A stretch of 34,081 bases of DNA from Desulfobacterales bacterium. Lineage in GTDB: Bacteria; Desulfobacterota; Desulfobulbia; Desulfobulbales; BM004. The stretch covers positions 1 to 34,081 of the forward strand of contig JAKITW010000023.1 in assembly GCA_021647905.1 (NCBI GenBank), in the 5' to 3' direction. Every line of letters begins with the position of its first letter. The stretch's first letter is position 1. Made by a program: the position numbers and the translations under genes. This document shows, in pieces, positions 4,072 through 10,123 of this stretch. A model generated the notes under the pieces. That model was given only the letters and a program-made list of their open reading frames with translations. It made no database searches and was not told where the DNA came from.

Positions 4072-4106
4072 ATACGCCATGCGCTCTGCGCCATGCCCGC
4101 TGCGCC
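4072..4106. repeat. Heptamer tandem repeats (ATGCGCC type)
   Basis: Five in-phase degenerate 7-bp units: ATACGCC, ATGCGCT, CTGCGCC, ATGCCCG, CTGCGCC. They sit just upstream of the nucleotidyltransferase gene. Related units lie at 7119-7146 (opposite orientation) and 7189-7216. Confidence 0.6.
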
Positions 4107-4123
4107 ATGGTTGATTCTTTGTG

Positions 4124-5320
4124 ATGCGCCCACCTCCTTTAAATAACAGCTATGCCCTGTTGGCCTTTTTTCTGTCGTCCTGGAAAAACAGGGAGACAAG
4201 GGCGGGGCTGGAAAAGGCGATGCGGCAAGGGCGGATCGACTGGGAAGGACTGTTGTTTCTGGCAAATCTGCACCTGTGCACCCCGCTATGGTACGTCTGC
4301 CTGAAATCTGACAAGTTGCTTTATCGGTTGCCCACGGAATTACAAGCTTATCTGGAAAATATTTACCTCCTGAACCTGGGGCGCAATGAGGCTGGCAAAC
4401 AGGAATTATCCAGGCTGCTCGCTGATTTTGCCGACCATTCCATTCCCGCGGTCCTGCTCAAGGGGGCGGCCACCTTTTGTGATCATCTCTATGGTGATCC
4501 CGGCGCCAGAATGATGGGAGATATCGATATCCTGGTGAACCCCCGGGATACCCGCGCCGTCTGTGCAATATTACGGGGCAGAGGATACGGAAAGGCGGAT
4601 AATCCGGAACTGGAGGTCAAGGATCCGGCCGCGGCAAGTCATCACCACCATTTGCCGGCCTTCCACCGGCCCGGCTCCCGGTTCCCGGTGGAGATCCATT
4701 ATAAAATCATCAGTAAGCAGGCGGGCCGGCTTTTTCCGCCCGCCATCCAGAGGGAAAGGTTTGTCAGGACAAGGCTGGACGGGCAGCCGGCGTATCTGTT
4801 GAACCCGACCGAGCGATTGATCCACAACGCAGGACACGCCCTGGTGCAAGGAATGACCTTCAGCCGTGGCCTGGTCTCGTTGCAGCAATTAAGCGATTTT
4901 TCCCACCTGGTCCAAAGGTATGGTCCACAGATCTCCTGGCCGGACTGGTTCAACCGCGGAACAGAAGCAGGGCATGGTATCGAGTTCCGCACCTATCTGC
5001 ACCTGGCGAACCGCTTACAGGGAGTGGAGGTTCCCCGGGATATCCCGCCGCTGAAACGGGCGAAATGGCATGCGGCGCGTATTGTGGCGGCCGGCAAGTA
5101 TATATCTGCCGATAATGGGAGACATCAGCGCAAATACGAAAGAATTCTCGGGCCATTGCTTAAGATTCTCGTTAAAGTTTATTATTATATGAGGTTGCCC
5201 GCCTTTGTCTGGGGAAATACGCGGTATACGGTTGGCAGTCGTTGTTATCCGGCGCGAATCCATCATCTTATGGTTAAAGCGGTCCAGGCCCGGAACTGGG
5301 CGAGGATTACCTATAGATAA
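4124..5320 (+). CDS. Nucleotidyltransferase family protein (PF14907-like)
   Basis: A 398-residue protein resembling the 'uncharacterised nucleotidyltransferase' family (NTP_transf_5). The signature is IPAVLLKGAATFCDHLYGDP followed by ARMMGDIDILV. GDID near residue 132 supplies the paired metal-binding aspartates, and VEIHY further on supplies the likely third carboxylate. The N-terminal hundred residues are helical, and the C-terminal part is helical and basic. Members often sit beside PqqD-like and HprK-like genes in peptide or exopolysaccharide clusters, and here a small peptide gene and a PqqD-HprK fusion follow directly. The reaction is expected to be transfer of a nucleotide to an acceptor; substrate and acceptor are unknown. 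The start is uncertain: GTG at 4121 and ATG at 4124 are adjacent and neither has a clear ribosome-binding site. Confidence 0.8.
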   Translation: MRPPPLNNSYALLAFFLSSWKNRETRAGLEKAMRQGRIDWEGLLFLANLHLCTPLWYVCLKSDKLLYRLPTELQAYLENIYLLNLGRNEAGKQELSRLLADFADHSIPAVLLKGAATFCDHLYGDPGARMMGDIDILVNPRDTRAVCAILRGRGYGKADNPELEVKDPAAASHHHHLPAFHRPGSRFPVEIHYKIISKQAGRLFPPAIQRERFVRTRLDGQPAYLLNPTERLIHNAGHALVQGMTFSRGLVSLQQLSDFSHLVQRYGPQISWPDWFNRGTEAGHGIEFRTYLHLANRLQGVEVPRDIPPLKRAKWHAARIVAAGKYISADNGRHQRKYERILGPLLKILVKVYYYMRLPAFVWGNTRYTVGSRCYPARIHHLMVKAVQARNWARITYR

Positions 5321-5546
5321 CCCGTTGTTGACAACCCTGGCCAATTGCATCGGTTTTTCCGTGACATCCGCGCTCTGCGCGGGAAAGCTTGCAGCCCGGC
5401 CGGCAACGGTGTAGATATCCGTATTATATTATCACTGACAGGCCGGCCAGGTCGCTTGGCGCCGGCAGATTTTGGACATGCTTCCGGATGGGGCGGGCAA
5501 TGTCGGTCACGGGTTGATTCCCCCTGCCGGGAACAAGGAGGTCGAA

Positions 5547-5759
5547 ATGTCGGGATCGAACAAAGAACCGGATCCGGTTGGCACGGGAAAAGATGTTGCG
5601 GATGAGAAACGCCGGGCTTTTTTGCGTAAAAGTGTGTATGCGGCATACGCCACCCCGGTGATTATGTCCATGCTGGTTGGCAAGAGTAGCGCCCAGATGT
5701 CGGGCGGTAACAGGTTCAGACGGCGAGGGAGGAACCAGTACGGGGATGATCCGGAGTGA
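5547..5759 (+). CDS. Small peptide with Tat-like/YxxP leader (candidate modification substrate)
   Basis: A 70-residue protein. The start at 5547 is chosen because AAGGAG lies at 5535-5540; a longer in-frame ORF from 5472 lacks this support. Residues 1-20 are acidic and polar. Residues 21-27 (KRRAFLR) resemble a twin-arginine signal, followed by a hydrophobic stretch to residue 44 and an SSAQ that could be a cleavage site. The same stretch contains YATPVI, which fits the YxxPx(L/I) leader motif recognised by PqqD-like recognition elements in lasso-peptide pathways. The last 20 residues are rich in Gly, Arg and Asn and end in DDPE. It lies between a nucleotidyltransferase gene and a PqqD-HprK fusion gene. 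Whether it is a precursor peptide or simply an exported small protein cannot be decided from sequence. Confidence 0.65.
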   Translation: MSGSNKEPDPVGTGKDVADEKRRAFLRKSVYAAYATPVIMSMLVGKSSAQMSGGNRFRRRGRNQYGDDPE

Positions 5760-5845
5760 ACATTTCCTGCCACCGGGGAAAGTCCGTCAAACCCCGTGAG
5801 TTCCGCTTTTACCTGATCCGGTAACCTGCTTTCGAGGTATGCTCC

Positions 5846-7117
5846 TTGGTCAGGGAACGATCCGATAACGCTCTGCTGGAGCAACCCTCCCCATCGATTT
5901 ACTTCTTTGCCTTTTCTGAAGGCGGGGTCCTTTTCTCCGCAAGGACCCGTCGAATCATGACCCTGAATCATTCGGCCGCGGTTATCTGGTGTCTCCTGGA
6001 GCGGATGTCGACCCTGGAGGAACTGGTAACAGAGATGACCCGGCACTTCCCGGTGGACAGGGCAACCGCGTATCAGGATACAACGGCTGTCCTGACGGTC
6101 TTGCGCGCCAAGGGGTTTGTCGGTGACCGGCCGCCTCCCGGTACGCCGGGAACCAAACACAGGGCAGGGCACCAGCAATCCGGTAAACTCCAGGCCGGTA
6201 AGATGTTACAGGCGCCGGGTCTTGCAACAAAGGGGCCGCGGTTCGATGAACCCCGCTGCTGGGCCTTCAGGCAATCTTATCAGATCTTGAATCATACGGC
6301 TGAGTTCTGCATTCAGGATCTTCGGCTCGGTTCGTCTTTCCGGCCGCTGATGCAACAACTGGCTGATAAGAACAACAGCGCCGCGGACACGGAGATCTGG
6401 GTACTTCCGGGTACAGGAGGGGGGGACACCTGGGATATTCTCCGGGACCGCAGGTTGCTTTTCGAGAAGGTGCCCACGGAAAGGGTGCTGCCATGCCTGT
6501 TTTCCCTGGCCTTTGCCGGGTACTGTGACGCCTTTGCCAACCGGTTGCTTTTACATGCCGCGGTCCTGGCAAAGGGGGAGCGGGCGATCATTTTTCCGGC
6601 AACGGCCGGGTCCGGCAAGACCACCCTGGCCGCGGTCCTTGTCATGCGGGGCTGGCGGTTTTATTCCGATGAACTCGCCGGGCTCAGCGTTGAGAAGCTG
6701 ACGGTCGCCCCGTTTGCCCTGCCCATGAGTATCAAATCAGGCTCGGTAAGTCAACTGGCGCCCTACTATCCCGGATTGCAGTCAGCGGAGGTCCACCAGC
6801 GGGCCGATGGAAAGGAGGTTCGATATCTGGTGCCGCCCCTTGACCGGATAGCCGGGCCAGGGGCGGAGGCGATGATTGAGGCGGTGGTCTTTCCCAGGAT
6901 TAAAAGACCGTCGCCGACCGGCCTGGTGGAACTCGGCAAGGCAGAGGCCCTGATGCGGCTGGCAGAGACCTGTTCCTCGGACCGGGATCTCATCCCCGGA
7001 GACATAGAGGCAATGATCAGGGTTGTGGAACAGTGCGCATGCCTGGAACTTGTTTTTTCAGATCCGGAGGAAGCGGCCGGGTTGCTGGAAAACAGCTTGA
7101 CGGGCCGGGCCGGCTGA
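5846..7117 (+). CDS. PqqD-domain / HPr-kinase-like fusion protein
   Basis: A 423-residue protein with two modules. Residues about 22-93 match the PqqD fold, a winged-helix peptide-binding element (GGVLFSARTRRIMTLNHSAA, AVIWCLLER, then a helical LEELVTEM). After a Pro/Gly/Lys-rich linker, residues about 225-400 resemble HPr kinase/phosphorylase: LLLHAAVLAKGERAIIF, Walker A TAGSGKTT at 253-260, and FYSDELAGL at 273-280, where HprK carries its catalytic acidic residue. The usual arrangement is two neighbouring genes (HprK-related kinase plus PqqD protein); here they are one chain. It could bind the small peptide encoded just upstream and phosphorylate it or a partner. The start is a TTG with GAGG 8-9 bp before it, and no in-frame ATG exists before residue 38. 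The modules are clear; the substrate is inference. Confidence 0.82.
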   Translation: MVRERSDNALLEQPSPSIYFFAFSEGGVLFSARTRRIMTLNHSAAVIWCLLERMSTLEELVTEMTRHFPVDRATAYQDTTAVLTVLRAKGFVGDRPPPGTPGTKHRAGHQQSGKLQAGKMLQAPGLATKGPRFDEPRCWAFRQSYQILNHTAEFCIQDLRLGSSFRPLMQQLADKNNSAADTEIWVLPGTGGGDTWDILRDRRLLFEKVPTERVLPCLFSLAFAGYCDAFANRLLLHAAVLAKGERAIIFPATAGSGKTTLAAVLVMRGWRFYSDELAGLSVEKLTVAPFALPMSIKSGSVSQLAPYYPGLQSAEVHQRADGKEVRYLVPPLDRIAGPGAEAMIEAVVFPRIKRPSPTGLVELGKAEALMRLAETCSSDRDLIPGDIEAMIRVVEQCACLELVFSDPEEAAGLLENSLTGRAG

Positions 7118-7118
7118 A

Positions 7119-7216
7119 GGCGCATGGGGCAGAGGGCATGGCGCAAAGGGTGAAGGGATTTGCGATTTGTTCTCAGTTGTTTTATCCTGTGCGCATTGCG
7201 CCTTCAGCTATGCGCT
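7119..7216. repeat. Two opposed heptamer arrays (GGCGCAN and NTGCGCC)
   Basis: Units GGCGCAT, GGGGCAG, AGGGCAT, GGCGCAA at 7119-7146 are followed after about 40 bases by GTGCGCA, TTGCGCC, TTCAGCT, ATGCGCT at 7189-7216, in the reverse sense. Folded together they could form a long imperfect hairpin between the fusion gene and lapG, which might terminate or slow transcription. Confidence 0.5.
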
Positions 7217-7257
7217 TCCCCGCTTGCCAGCCAGATCGCTTGTCCCAAGGAGATCCT

Positions 7258-7965
7258 TTGCCCAAAAAACACCGCATTCTGTGTGCTGCGATCCTGCTCG
7301 TTTTTTTTGCCGCCACCGGTGTTGCGCTCACCAGGGTGAATTTTCGGATTGACAGCAAGATCATCGACCAGGCGGTGCGACGGTACGGAGACCAGGCCCG
7401 GGTCTGGCTGGAGCGGTGGCAGGAGTTGATCCGGCAGGACAGCACTGTTCCGGAGCGGGAGCAGCTCAAAAGGGTTAATGATTTTTTCAACCAGCTGGAG
7501 TTTGTTTCCGACATCTCCCACTGGGGAAAAAGCGATTACTGGGCCACCCCGGTGGAGTTTCTCAGCAGCCGGGGGGGGGACTGTGAAGATTTTTCCCTGG
7601 CCAAGTACTTTACCCTCAGGGCAATGGGGGTTCCGGAAAGCAAGCTGAAGCTTACCTACGTCAGGGCCCTCGACTTTGACCAGCCGCACATGGTCCTCAC
7701 CTACTACACCAGCCCTGGCGCCGAGCCGCTGGTCCTCGACAACATCAAAAAAACCATCAAGCCGGCCTCAAAACGGAAAGATCTGGTGCCGGTCTACAGT
7801 TTTAACGGCAGCGGGCTCTGGCTGGCAAAGCAACGGGGTCGCGGCATGATGCTGGGCGGCCGCAACCGTCTCACCCTCTGGCAGGATCTCCTAGAACGGA
7901 TGCCGGAAGGTCTGTTGACAGAGCCGGACAAAAAATTGACCGCAGACAAGGGGAATCGACCATGA
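7258..7965 (+). CDS. lapG: LapG-like periplasmic cysteine protease (BTLCP family)
   Basis: A 235-residue bacterial transglutaminase-like cysteine proteinase. In Pseudomonas, LapG cleaves the N-terminus of a giant surface adhesin and releases the cell from the surface. An N-terminal hydrophobic segment (ILCAAILLVFFAATGVAL) directs it to the periplasm. The catalytic triad is visible as Cys109 in SSRGGDCEDFSLAKY, His144 in DQPHMVLTYY, and Asp161 in EPLVLDNI. The TTG start at 7258 is chosen because AAGGAG lies 5 bp before it and the signal peptide follows at once; the frame is open back to 7033 but that part overlaps the previous gene. The stop overlaps the lapD start in ATGA. No candidate adhesin substrate is in the window. 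Confidence 0.9.
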   Translation: MPKKHRILCAAILLVFFAATGVALTRVNFRIDSKIIDQAVRRYGDQARVWLERWQELIRQDSTVPEREQLKRVNDFFNQLEFVSDISHWGKSDYWATPVEFLSSRGGDCEDFSLAKYFTLRAMGVPESKLKLTYVRALDFDQPHMVLTYYTSPGAEPLVLDNIKKTIKPASKRKDLVPVYSFNGSGLWLAKQRGRGMMLGGRNRLTLWQDLLERMPEGLLTEPDKKLTADKGNRP

Positions 7966-9992
7966 CACTGTATCGACAGCTCATTCTTTTCATCCTTCTT
8001 CTGTTCCTGCTTCTCTTTACCGGAAGCTGGCTGGCAAAGCTTGAAAGCACCCGCTCGTTTCTTTTCAACCAACTGCAATCACACGCCCAGGATACGGCCA
8101 CCTCCCTGGGACTGTCGCTGTCGCAGTGCATGGCTGATAACGATATGGTGGCGGTTGAGTCCCGGCTCAACGCGATTTTCGACCGGGGCTATTACCGGCT
8201 GATCCGGCTCACGGATGTTTCCGGCGCTGTTTTAAAAGAACTTACCCTTAAGGTGAAAATCGAAGACGTTCCGCAATGGTTTGTCCGGTTGTTCCCCTTA
8301 GAGACCCCCTATGCCCGGGCAAACGTGATGTCCGGCTGGTACCAGTCCGGCACCCTCATTGTGGAGAGCCACCCGGGCTATGCCTATAAGATGCTCTGGG
8401 AGACGGCCACCCGGATGACCATCTGGTTCGCGGGTGCTGGACTTGTGGTCTTGATCGCCGGCAGCCTGGGCCTGCGGATTCTGCTCCGCCCCTTGCAGGA
8501 GGTGGAGCGCCAGGCCGAGGCGCTCTGCAACAAGGAGTACCGGATCCAGGAACACCTGCCCCGGACCAGGGAGTTGCGGCAATTGGTCGCAGCCATGAAC
8601 CGCATGACCATCAAGGTAAAGGAGATGTTTGAGGAGCAGGTGGCCATTGCTGAACGGCTGCGGCAACATGCCTACAGCGACTCCCTCACCGGACTGAGCA
8701 ACCGTCGTTATCTCGCCAGCCAGGTAGCCGCACATTTTGAGCGTAACGAAAACGCGATCCAAGGGGCACTCCTGCTGGTCCAGGTCCACGAACTGAAAAA
8801 ACTCAACCAGCAGAAAGGGCTTCAGGCCGGCGATCTGTTAATCAAGCGGGTGGCGGAAATACTCCAGGCCCAAGGTAGCCGGATATCGGGGGTCGAGGTG
8901 GCTCGGCTGACCGGCGGCGATTTCTGCATCTTCATGCCCGGCGCCTCACCTGACGATGCCGAACAGGCGGCGGCCGCCATTGTCAACCGGATGACCCTCC
9001 TGGCGGTGGAGCAACTCACCCTTTCCGACAATATCGGTCACGTGGGCGCGGCGGTGTATGAATGCGCCACCAATCTGGGTACATTGCTGTCCGAGGCGGA
9101 TCTGGCCCTGCGCACCGCCCAGCGGAATGGGCCGAACACCTGGCAGGTGGCAACAGTCACCCGGGACTGCGAGAACAAGTACCAGGGGGAACAGGCATGG
9201 CGGGCCGCGCTTGAGCGGGCCATAAGGGAACGGAACATCTTCCTGTTTGCCCAGCCCTCGGTTGCCTGTACGGACCGGGACCGGATTGTGCATCTGGAGA
9301 TCTTCTCCCGGGTGGTCCAGGAAGACGGCGCCCTGTTGAACGCCGGACTTTTCATGCCATACGCCGAGCGGCTTGACCTGGTTGCGGCCCTGGATCTGGT
9401 GGTCCTGGAAAAGGTGAAGGAGTTTGACAAGGCGGACCTGGGCACAGACCGGATTGCGATCAATATCTCCCCCTCGTCGCTCCTGGATGATTCCTTCAGC
9501 CAACGGACCGAATCCATCCTGCGCAGCCTGCCGGACAAGGCGCCGCGGATCACCTTTGAGGTGGTTGAATTCAGCGCCATCAACCACCTTGACCGGGTCA
9601 AGGAGTTCCGTGCCATGGTGGCCCGATACGGACACACCATCGGCCTGGATCATTTCGGCCGGAGTTTTTCCAACTTCGGATACCTGCAATCGCTGCGGCC
9701 TGATTTCGTCAAAATTGACCGGGCCTATATCAGCGAACTCAAAGGGCGAGAGAGCGACAGCGGTTTCTTTATCAGCTCCCTGTGCAGTGTTGCCCACAGC
9801 CTTGATATCGCCGTGGTCGCGATCGGGGTGGAGGAAGAACGGCAGTGGCAAATCCTGCAGGAACTCAACCTTGACGCCATGCAGGGCTACTTCATCGAAA
9901 AGCCCTATCCCATTAAGCTTCGCACCACCGGAAACGATCCACCAACCGATGATCGAGATTCTGAAAGGGTTTTCAAGGGCAGGAAAAGATAG
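7962..9992 (+). CDS. lapD: LapD-like c-di-GMP receptor with degenerate GGDEF and EAL domains
   Basis: A 676-residue inner-membrane protein: transmembrane helix at about 6-24, periplasmic LapD/MoxY-type domain to about 150, second helix at about 153-172, HAMP-like linker, GGDEF at about 235-395, EAL at about 415-660. The GGDEF signature is GGDFC (318-322), lacking the catalytic Glu. In the EAL domain the Glu of EAL is kept (HLEIFSR), but DDFG has become DHFG (563-566) and AEGVE has become AIGVE. Both enzymes are therefore probably dead, as expected of LapD, which binds c-di-GMP and sequesters LapG in the periplasm. It overlaps lapG by 4 bp. A 101-bp mobile element lies 23 bp after the stop. 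Confidence 0.9.
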   Translation: MTLYRQLILFILLLFLLLFTGSWLAKLESTRSFLFNQLQSHAQDTATSLGLSLSQCMADNDMVAVESRLNAIFDRGYYRLIRLTDVSGAVLKELTLKVKIEDVPQWFVRLFPLETPYARANVMSGWYQSGTLIVESHPGYAYKMLWETATRMTIWFAGAGLVVLIAGSLGLRILLRPLQEVERQAEALCNKEYRIQEHLPRTRELRQLVAAMNRMTIKVKEMFEEQVAIAERLRQHAYSDSLTGLSNRRYLASQVAAHFERNENAIQGALLLVQVHELKKLNQQKGLQAGDLLIKRVAEILQAQGSRISGVEVARLTGGDFCIFMPGASPDDAEQAAAAIVNRMTLLAVEQLTLSDNIGHVGAAVYECATNLGTLLSEADLALRTAQRNGPNTWQVATVTRDCENKYQGEQAWRAALERAIRERNIFLFAQPSVACTDRDRIVHLEIFSRVVQEDGALLNAGLFMPYAERLDLVAALDLVVLEKVKEFDKADLGTDRIAINISPSSLLDDSFSQRTESILRSLPDKAPRITFEVVEFSAINHLDRVKEFRAMVARYGHTIGLDHFGRSFSNFGYLQSLRPDFVKIDRAYISELKGRESDSGFFISSLCSVAHSLDIAVVAIGVEEERQWQILQELNLDAMQGYFIEKPYPIKLRTTGNDPPTDDRDSERVFKGRKR

Positions 9993-10015
9993 TTAATGGT
10001 TGTTTGTTAATTGTT
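9991..10015. repeat. Heptamer array (NGTTAAT type) interrupted by the 101-bp element
   Basis: AGTTAAT, GGTTGTT, TGTTAAT and a partial TGTT precede the element. If the element and one 7-bp duplication are removed, the array continues in phase with another TGTTAAT. Confidence 0.5.
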
Positions 10016-10123
10016 GATGAACTCGTAACAACCCGAAAGGCTTCAAATGCCACCCAATAAAATCAACAAGTTACAAGACGAATCACGTCCGTCGAGCGGG
10101 TTGTTGCGAGACCGACAATTGTT
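10009..10123 (+). mobile_element. 101-bp MITE-like element, copy 2, with 7-bp target duplication
   Basis: The element is 10016-10116 and is identical to copy 1 (341-441) except for one base (T in place of C at element position 8). Flanking direct repeats AATTGTT lie at 10009-10015 and 10117-10123. In this copy the inner inverted repeat extends to 14 bp with a single mismatch (CTCGTAACAACCCG against CGGGTTGTTGCGAG). It lies between lapD and the LOG-family gene. Confidence 0.8.

Follow-up and report, generated by a model that had tools for sequence, protein, structure and literature searches.

The window, here the whole of contig C23 (34,081 nucleotides, from a genome of 2.7 Mb in 118 contigs), carries three consecutive genes on one strand: a PF14907 nucleotidyltransferase (NTase), a 70-residue peptide and a protein that joins a PqqD domain to an HprK-like kinase. 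An earlier sequence-only reading of this DNA had the gene coordinates and domain calls right (PF14907, E 7e-43; PqqD, E 2.4e-14; HprK_rel_A, E 1.6e-34), as well as the presence of YATPVI at residues 34-39 of the peptide and the Gly/Arg/Asn-rich character of residues 50-70. The features of the locus are as follows.

4124..5320, + strand: PF14907 nucleotidyltransferase, 398 aa (Pfam).
Within 4124..5320, + strand: NTase conserved residues K113-G114, R129, D133-x-D135 and E190-x-H192, of catalytic type and unchanged across the 14 homologues compared from HprK loci.
5534..5541, + strand: strong Shine-Dalgarno sequence AAGGAGGT, 5 nt before the peptide ATG, read directly.
5547..5759, + strand: putative precursor peptide, 70 aa; open reading frame with aligned homologues next to this enzyme in five further genomes.
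5610..5693, + strand: leader or Tat-like signal RRAFLRKSVYAAYATPVIMSMLVGKSSA, residues 22-49, defined by alignment; Tat and signal-peptidase roles predicted.
5610..5693, + strand: parts of the leader from the alignment, namely the twin Arg, the hydrophobic stretch and a Lys before SSA (an SxA-type site).
5646..5663, + strand: YATPVI (Tyr34, Pro37, Ile39), corresponding in the alignment to the RRE-binding motif [Y/W]xxPx[I/L/V] as defined in PMC13381572.
5694..5759, + strand: variable tail QMSGGNRFRRRGRNQYGDDPE, including the stop codon, residues 50-70; tails differ in 6/6 genomes.
5700..5702, + strand: Ser52, Ser+3 past the predicted cleavage site and 18 residues from Tyr34; predicted phosphosite, from the homologues and the LppA Ser3 index.
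5846..7117, + strand: PqqD-HprK fusion, 423 aa, TTG start (matches to PF05402 and TIGR04352).
5846..6130, + strand: PqqD/RRE domain (PF05402, residues 28-92), with Asn41 and Asp78 equivalent to N33 and D70 of LppB.
6524..7117, + strand: HprK-like kinase domain with His237, Walker A GSGKTT containing Lys258, and Asp275-Glu276 (TIGR04352, Foldseek).

We searched 258 genomes of the order with profiles. The fusion, full-length or nearly so (E < 1e-90), is present in seven of them (G000, G298, G320, G339, G349, G364 and G402, the G339 copy being split across two contigs). Strong matches to the peptide (E 7e-26 to 2e-36) were restricted to six genomes spanning three families, all of which carry the fusion beside it (Fisher 2e-11 over the 258 genomes, uncorrected for relatedness). 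The gene order is peptide to fusion in five of them and fusion to peptide in G402. Since the only strong matches each lie beside the same enzyme, the peptide is not a chance reading frame. The seventh genome, G298, has the fusion and an NTase but no clear peptide; its weak candidate is a Tat-like, Pro/Gly-rich ORF on a separate contig. A scan of the genome contigs with the single sequence gave no match, and an alignment-based scan gave nine distant loci.

The alignment of the six peptides shows invariant RR, FL, S, Y, YATPV, S and V. The conserved leader comprises RRxFL[RK], of which RRxFL is identical in 6/6, a hydrophobic stretch with YATPV[IL], where Tyr and Pro never change and the sixth place holds Ile or Leu, and an (S/A)xA site. 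The codons beneath YATPV vary synonymously, which implies that the constraint acts on the protein. The tails (approximately 19-33 residues) are hypervariable apart from Ser+3, present in five of the six, so that the expected conservation of tail residues was not observed beyond this serine. In G339 and G349, which belong to one genus, the leaders are identical at 28/28 positions and the tails are different. The tail is the probable mature peptide (core).

The PqqD domain has lasso B1 proteins and LppB as its nearest solved relatives. Profile alignment to LppB (9x8z) pairs N33 and D70 with the fusion residues N41 and D78, both invariant (7/7). These are the residues that LppB requires for YxxP binding, N33 at the kink at Pro and D70 at the Tyr hydroxyl (PMC13381572), whereas paeninodin-type RREs, readers of WxxP, have Gly at the first place and PbaB1 has Gln at the second. 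The proposal that a PqqD element may read the leader motif is supported by this pair and by the YxxP kept in every peptide. When the fusion model was searched with Foldseek, its N-terminal part matched lasso B1 proteins solved with a leader and its kinase matched HprK/P and PEPCK structures. The kinase residues H237, K258 and D275 are invariant in 15/15 sequences, and the catalytic set of the HprK/P fold is complete. The proximity of the PqqD domain to lasso B1, together with one weak Transglut_core3 match in the genome, would fit a precursor of the lasso type with its cyclase and B2 peptidase encoded at another genomic site. We consider this exceedingly improbable, given that neither the window nor the relatives' loci showed a lasso cyclase ORF and that the tails have no conserved ring-forming acidic residue; a lasso origin was rejected on the absence of a cyclase and of a B2 peptidase from the window.

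Linear Polyphosphorylated Peptides (LPPs), reported as restricted to Bacillota (Popov et al., Nat Commun 2026; PMC13381572), are encoded in capsular polysaccharide loci with a discrete RRE, an HprK-like kinase, an NTP transferase, an SpI-like peptidase (LppS) and an MsbA-like ABC exporter, and with no cyclase (PMC13381572). Their precursors follow the consensus YxxPxVLxHQxIxFETxxS, with the Ser at index 19, and the LPP kinase phosphorylates core Ser3 only, the phosphates being loaded there (PMC13381572). In the window peptide the predicted cleavage is SSA/QMS, the slash marking the cut, and a Ser likewise stands at index 19 counted from Tyr. This is the case in 5/6 homologues including the window (probability around 9e-6 at a Ser background of 6.9%), the G402 peptide having no Ser+3. 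Together with the constant presence of the fusion and its invariant kinase residues, the spacing lends support to the idea of a kinase-modified peptide; judging from the sequences, a defined serine of the small protein probably receives a phosphate before the protein leaves the cell.

The likeness to LPPs extends to the set of RRE, HprK-like kinase and NTP transferase without a cyclase, the YxxPx[V/I/L] leader with the Asn/Asp pair of the RRE (LppB N33/D70; binding is predicted here), the conserved N-terminus and variable C-terminus of the precursor, the Ser 18 residues past Tyr, and the polysaccharide-locus context. Differences are also evident. The RRE is discrete in LPPs and fused to the kinase here, a twin-arginine signal is unmentioned for LPPs whereas the leader here is Tat-like, and where the LPP leader continues HQxIxFET we find MSMLVGKSSA or similar. 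In place of LppS and the MsbA-like exporter, no SpI-like leader peptidase or MsbA-like exporter gene lies beside the window cassette, and none was noticed in the relatives' loci. Because two tested features, the dedicated peptidase/exporter and HQxIxFET, are absent, we do not file the cassette as an LPP member; it appears to be a variant that has the geometry of recognition and phosphosite by which LPPs are defined and would work like an LPP cassette.

The chemistry had been put forward as new for such a peptide, a view that has to be abandoned, since phosphorylation guided by YxxP/WxxP leaders, plus an NTase step, is known from paeninodin, pseudomycoidin and LPPs without a cyclase (PMC9266682, PMC13381572). 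It is not wholly new; what is new is the Tat-leader arrangement and its breadth. In paeninodin and pseudomycoidin (PadeK, PsmK, PsmN) an HprK-like kinase similarly acts on a peptide with an RRE-bound leader, and pseudomycoidin adds an NTase, but these systems have a lasso cyclase and a B2 peptidase, and paeninodin-type ones have WxxP leaders and Gly/Gln instead of Asn/Asp in the RRE. The HPr-rel-A system (TIGR04352, HprK_rel_A; TIGR04353, PqqD_rel_X) also places an HprK-related kinase A next to a PqqD-type chaperone, and in Sphingomonas (L118) a Tat-like protein adjoins the pair too. The window fusion differs in that its match to TIGR04352, confined to the kinase half (residues 227-415), reaches 119.3 bits against a curated cut-off of 200, below the HPr-rel-A threshold; the family titles name no substrate. 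In the open-access literature searched we found neither the HPr-rel-A system by name nor a report tying HprK/PqqD to Tat.

We then compared HprK-related loci beyond the clade, 42 further ones from the order and 17 from other sources (other groups of the phylum, Acidobacteriota, Planctomycetota, Chloroflexota, Myxococcota, and alpha-, beta- and gammaproteobacteria), with 60 control windows, each 7 kb long, drawn from the order's genomes. The regular expression [YWF]xxPx[ILVMAT], combined with a hydrophobicity rule and applied within 3 kb of the kinase, detected a Tat-like ORF with the motif at 20/42 order loci and 6/17 other loci (26/59 overall) versus 2/60 controls (Fisher 8e-8 and 1e-3 for the two sets), counts that are descriptive because the rule was set after the first cases had been seen. 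At 22/42 order loci, some of them at contig ends, the 3 kb around HprK held no motif protein. A W-type, RRxxLKK...K-W[TS]xP[ILV][VI]...LPAHA/xTSG, makes up most of the members in the order, with proteins of approximately 100-320 aa and Ser+3 in 20/21, the remaining one having Thr. W-type proteins with RR also occur outside these genera and in further phyla. The distance between the motif and (A/S)xA is mostly constant, at 15-16 residues. Among the neighbouring PqqD domains, the Asn is retained in essentially all cases and the Asp in most. Ten putative substrate proteins searched against Pfam/NCBIfam gave weak matches only and fell into no family, so that their tails point to no function. YxxP as an absolute rule was rejected, as the Tat-like neighbours at L113, L115 and L117 (Vibrio) have the Pro without Tyr/Trp; with the Tat-like neighbour at L118, which is without the motif, these show that it is not universal. 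At the level of sequence, the pattern extends over several bacterial phyla other than Firmicutes. A tentative extension, which we regard as possible, is a widespread exported class of peptides and 100-300 aa proteins in several phyla that would share a dual-use twin-arginine signal, where docking of PqqD at [Y/W]xxPx[I/V] would restrain export while the HprK-like kinase phosphorylates Ser+3 and the NTase builds on the phosphate.

Regarding the export route, the peptide displays the sequence traits of a Tat substrate: an RRxFLK-type motif, a hydrophobic stretch, an [AS]xA-type site (6/6 peptides) and a preceding basic residue, Lys in 5/6. TatC is present in the genome. The curated TAT model TIGR01409 gave no match to the window peptide, and one W-type relative reached 16.0 bits against a cut-off of 16.7. 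Since the TAT models are silent, the argument for Tat is the fit of the RRxFLRK core to the Tat consensus, together with the basic residue that precedes SxA; the export by Tat envisaged earlier is still plausible. The silent models, a hydrophobic region more polar than is usual in signals (Y, T, P, S) and the reliance of LPPs on their own SpI-like peptidase and an ABC exporter would all agree with an LPP/RiPP precursor that is read by PqqD and phosphorylated, but whose RR is no working Tat signal, with leader removal and export following Sec or another route, or the product staying inside. This is, in our judgement, unlikely, considering the invariant RRxFL, the twin Arg shared by W-type proteins of other genera and phyla, the mostly fixed position of (A/S)xA relative to the motif and the lack of a linked exporter or peptidase gene in the window.

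Thirty genuine Tat signals were extracted from the same genomes, about 26 of them in the right frame, and [YW]xxPx occurs in 0 of these about 26 correctly located signals. Taken together, the evidence suggests that one leader sequence may serve both as a Tat-type signal and as an RRE docking site. The Tat and YxxP readings had been offered as separate ones; both are retained here, now as two probable jobs of one sequence. We know of no structural example of an RRE holding a hydrophobic signal as a beta strand. No precedent for a Tat-type signal doubling as a recognition leader was found in the open-access literature. The bufferins (MNIO RiPPs) come near, in that their signal peptide has been proposed to be recognized by the modifying complex before export, with the difference that they combine a Sec signal with an iron-dependent oxidative enzyme (PMC12452194) and the cassette a Tat-type signal with a kinase.

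PF14907-type enzymes adjoin most HprK-related kinases of the order, but within the window's clade such a neighbour exists in G000, G298 and G339 only, with a divergent one farther off in G320. It lies near the peptide in the window and in G339 (at 1.3 kb) and is not near it in 4/6 peptide genomes, among them G349, where a contig end truncates the locus. Co-occurrence of the peptide with both enzymes was thus confirmed for the fusion, G298 having it without the peptide, and not for the NTase, which is no obligate neighbour in the clade. Comparison with solved sequences gave no relative of the NTase, and its fold model (pLDDT 64) matches nucleotidyltransferases weakly. This weak resemblance and the intact PF14907 active site could speak for nucleotidylation of an AMPylation-like kind by the NTase, with the HprK domain being regulatory or having another substrate. 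We deem it highly improbable, because the fusion of the RRE to the kinase makes the latter the leader-guided enzyme, the NTase is not near the peptide in most of the peptide genomes, and in pseudomycoidin the product of the homologous NTase gene adds hexoses to phosphoserine, acting after the kinase (PMC9266682).

The explanation that we favour, as fairly probable on present evidence, is an LPP-like maturation cassette for linear phospho-peptides outside Bacillota, whose Tat-type signal would be the RRE leader and which would use the ordinary signal peptidase instead of a dedicated one. The precursor would comprise a charged N-terminal extension, RRxFLRK, the hydrophobic stretch with YATPVI and K-(S/A)xA. 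The PqqD domain (RRE) of the fusion would bind YATPVI as an added beta strand, through Asp78 to the Tyr hydroxyl and Asn41 at the kink at Pro, and mask the export signal for as long as it is bound. The fused kinase would phosphorylate Ser+3, at its fixed 18 residues from Tyr, and the NTase, where present, would extend the phosphate with a sugar or nucleotidyl group. The released precursor would then be exported, most likely via Tat, and the ordinary signal peptidase would cut after (S/A)xA, so that the tail, short and phosphorylated, would be freed at the envelope and possibly serve exopolysaccharide. We infer leader binding, phosphorylation, masking, cleavage, the NTase step and function, as well as Tat export, from the comparisons given above.

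The docking motif, RRE residues and Ser spacing of LPPs are thus found outside Bacillota, within Tat-type signals and in several phyla. If the proposal is correct, it would provide probable substrates and a phosphosite for the HprK-related kinase A/PqqD pair, unnamed in the family titles, and account for the recurring hypothetical proteins whose signals end LPAHAxTSG. On the tentative extension, it might also couple Tat proofreading to post-translational modification, with the RRE as a chaperone of Tat signals, comparable to what is proposed for the Sec signals of bufferins.

The link between such peptides and polysaccharide loci is repeated here. In G298, G320, G339, G349 and G364 the cassette lies inside polysaccharide loci, with families for EpsE-type export, the EpsF/EpsG chain-length kinase, EpsL, CpsB and the Wzy_C O-antigen ligase. 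This setting, and the resemblance of the longer W-type relatives to secreted proteins, would also accommodate an ordinary Tat-secreted small protein that has an unrelated PqqD-HprK/NTase pair as its neighbour, either fortuitously or as a member of an exopolysaccharide island. Such a bystander is very unlikely in view of the co-occurrence in 6/6, the recurrence of the motif in several phyla, the motif-to-Ser spacing, the motif-free genuine Tat signals and the conserved YxxP-binding residues of PqqD; chance association was rejected, as the six peptide genomes all carry the fusion and the loci so clearly exceed the controls. For the peptide as an LPP-like product, our guess, made by the LPP authors as well (PMC13381572), is a function connected with the cell envelope or the matrix of a biofilm. 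The neighbours in the window are instead LapG and LapD, biofilm regulators, and polysaccharide export genes are located elsewhere in its genome. An inverted repeat surrounds the cassette.

Three observations from the fetched loci are listed here:

L075 5402-8225: HprK kinase, PqqD, nucleotidyltransferase and a radical SAM enzyme in one locus
L120 5109-5393: unannotated 94-aa ORF, Methylobacterium plasmid pMt-1
L207 1495-1776: ORF of about 93 aa in genome G298, Tat-like and rich in Pro and Gly

The genes named for L075 are adjoined by a 109-aa peptide displaying a YVAPII motif and an RGRGRARAR tail. The ORF of L120 (RRSALKAMGAVAAYTAPVLL...ARA, followed by SGS after the predicted cleavage site) adjoins an annotated PqqD-kinase fusion. 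Among the 258 genomes of the order that were scanned, G298 is the sole one having the fusion without a clear peptide, and its Tat-like ORF is a possible alternative substrate. Two W-type Tat-like proteins accompany a single kinase in each of L121, L123 and L134, resembling the clusters of Linear Polyphosphorylated Peptides, which carry one to three precursors.

YxxP-type peptides lacking RR were also observed at further PqqD/HprK-like loci (L024, L012 and L027/L029). They are the Cys/Gly-rich MTATKFKFPYESPKIL..., MDKKREYERPEIITYTEEE... and MKEPYEKPLI, the last being a leader joined to a decarboxylase-like start.

Other genes noted in the window are as follows:

447-1017, - strand: probable toxin-antitoxin pair
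1546-2171, - strand: probable toxin-antitoxin pair
7204-9992: LapG-like protease and LapD-like c-di-GMP receptor, immediately downstream of the cassette

One of the toxins is PemK/MazF-like and the other ParE-like, each with a small ORF upstream. The nucleotidyltransferase-peptide-fusion cassette is flanked almost exactly by the arms (4084-4109 and 7123-7148) of a 26-nt inverted repeat (88%). This repeat might be a vestige of mobility, or GCGC-rich repeats may have arisen there by chance. A 105-nt repeat pair of 99% identity is found at 339-443 and 10014-10118, spaced 9.7 kb.
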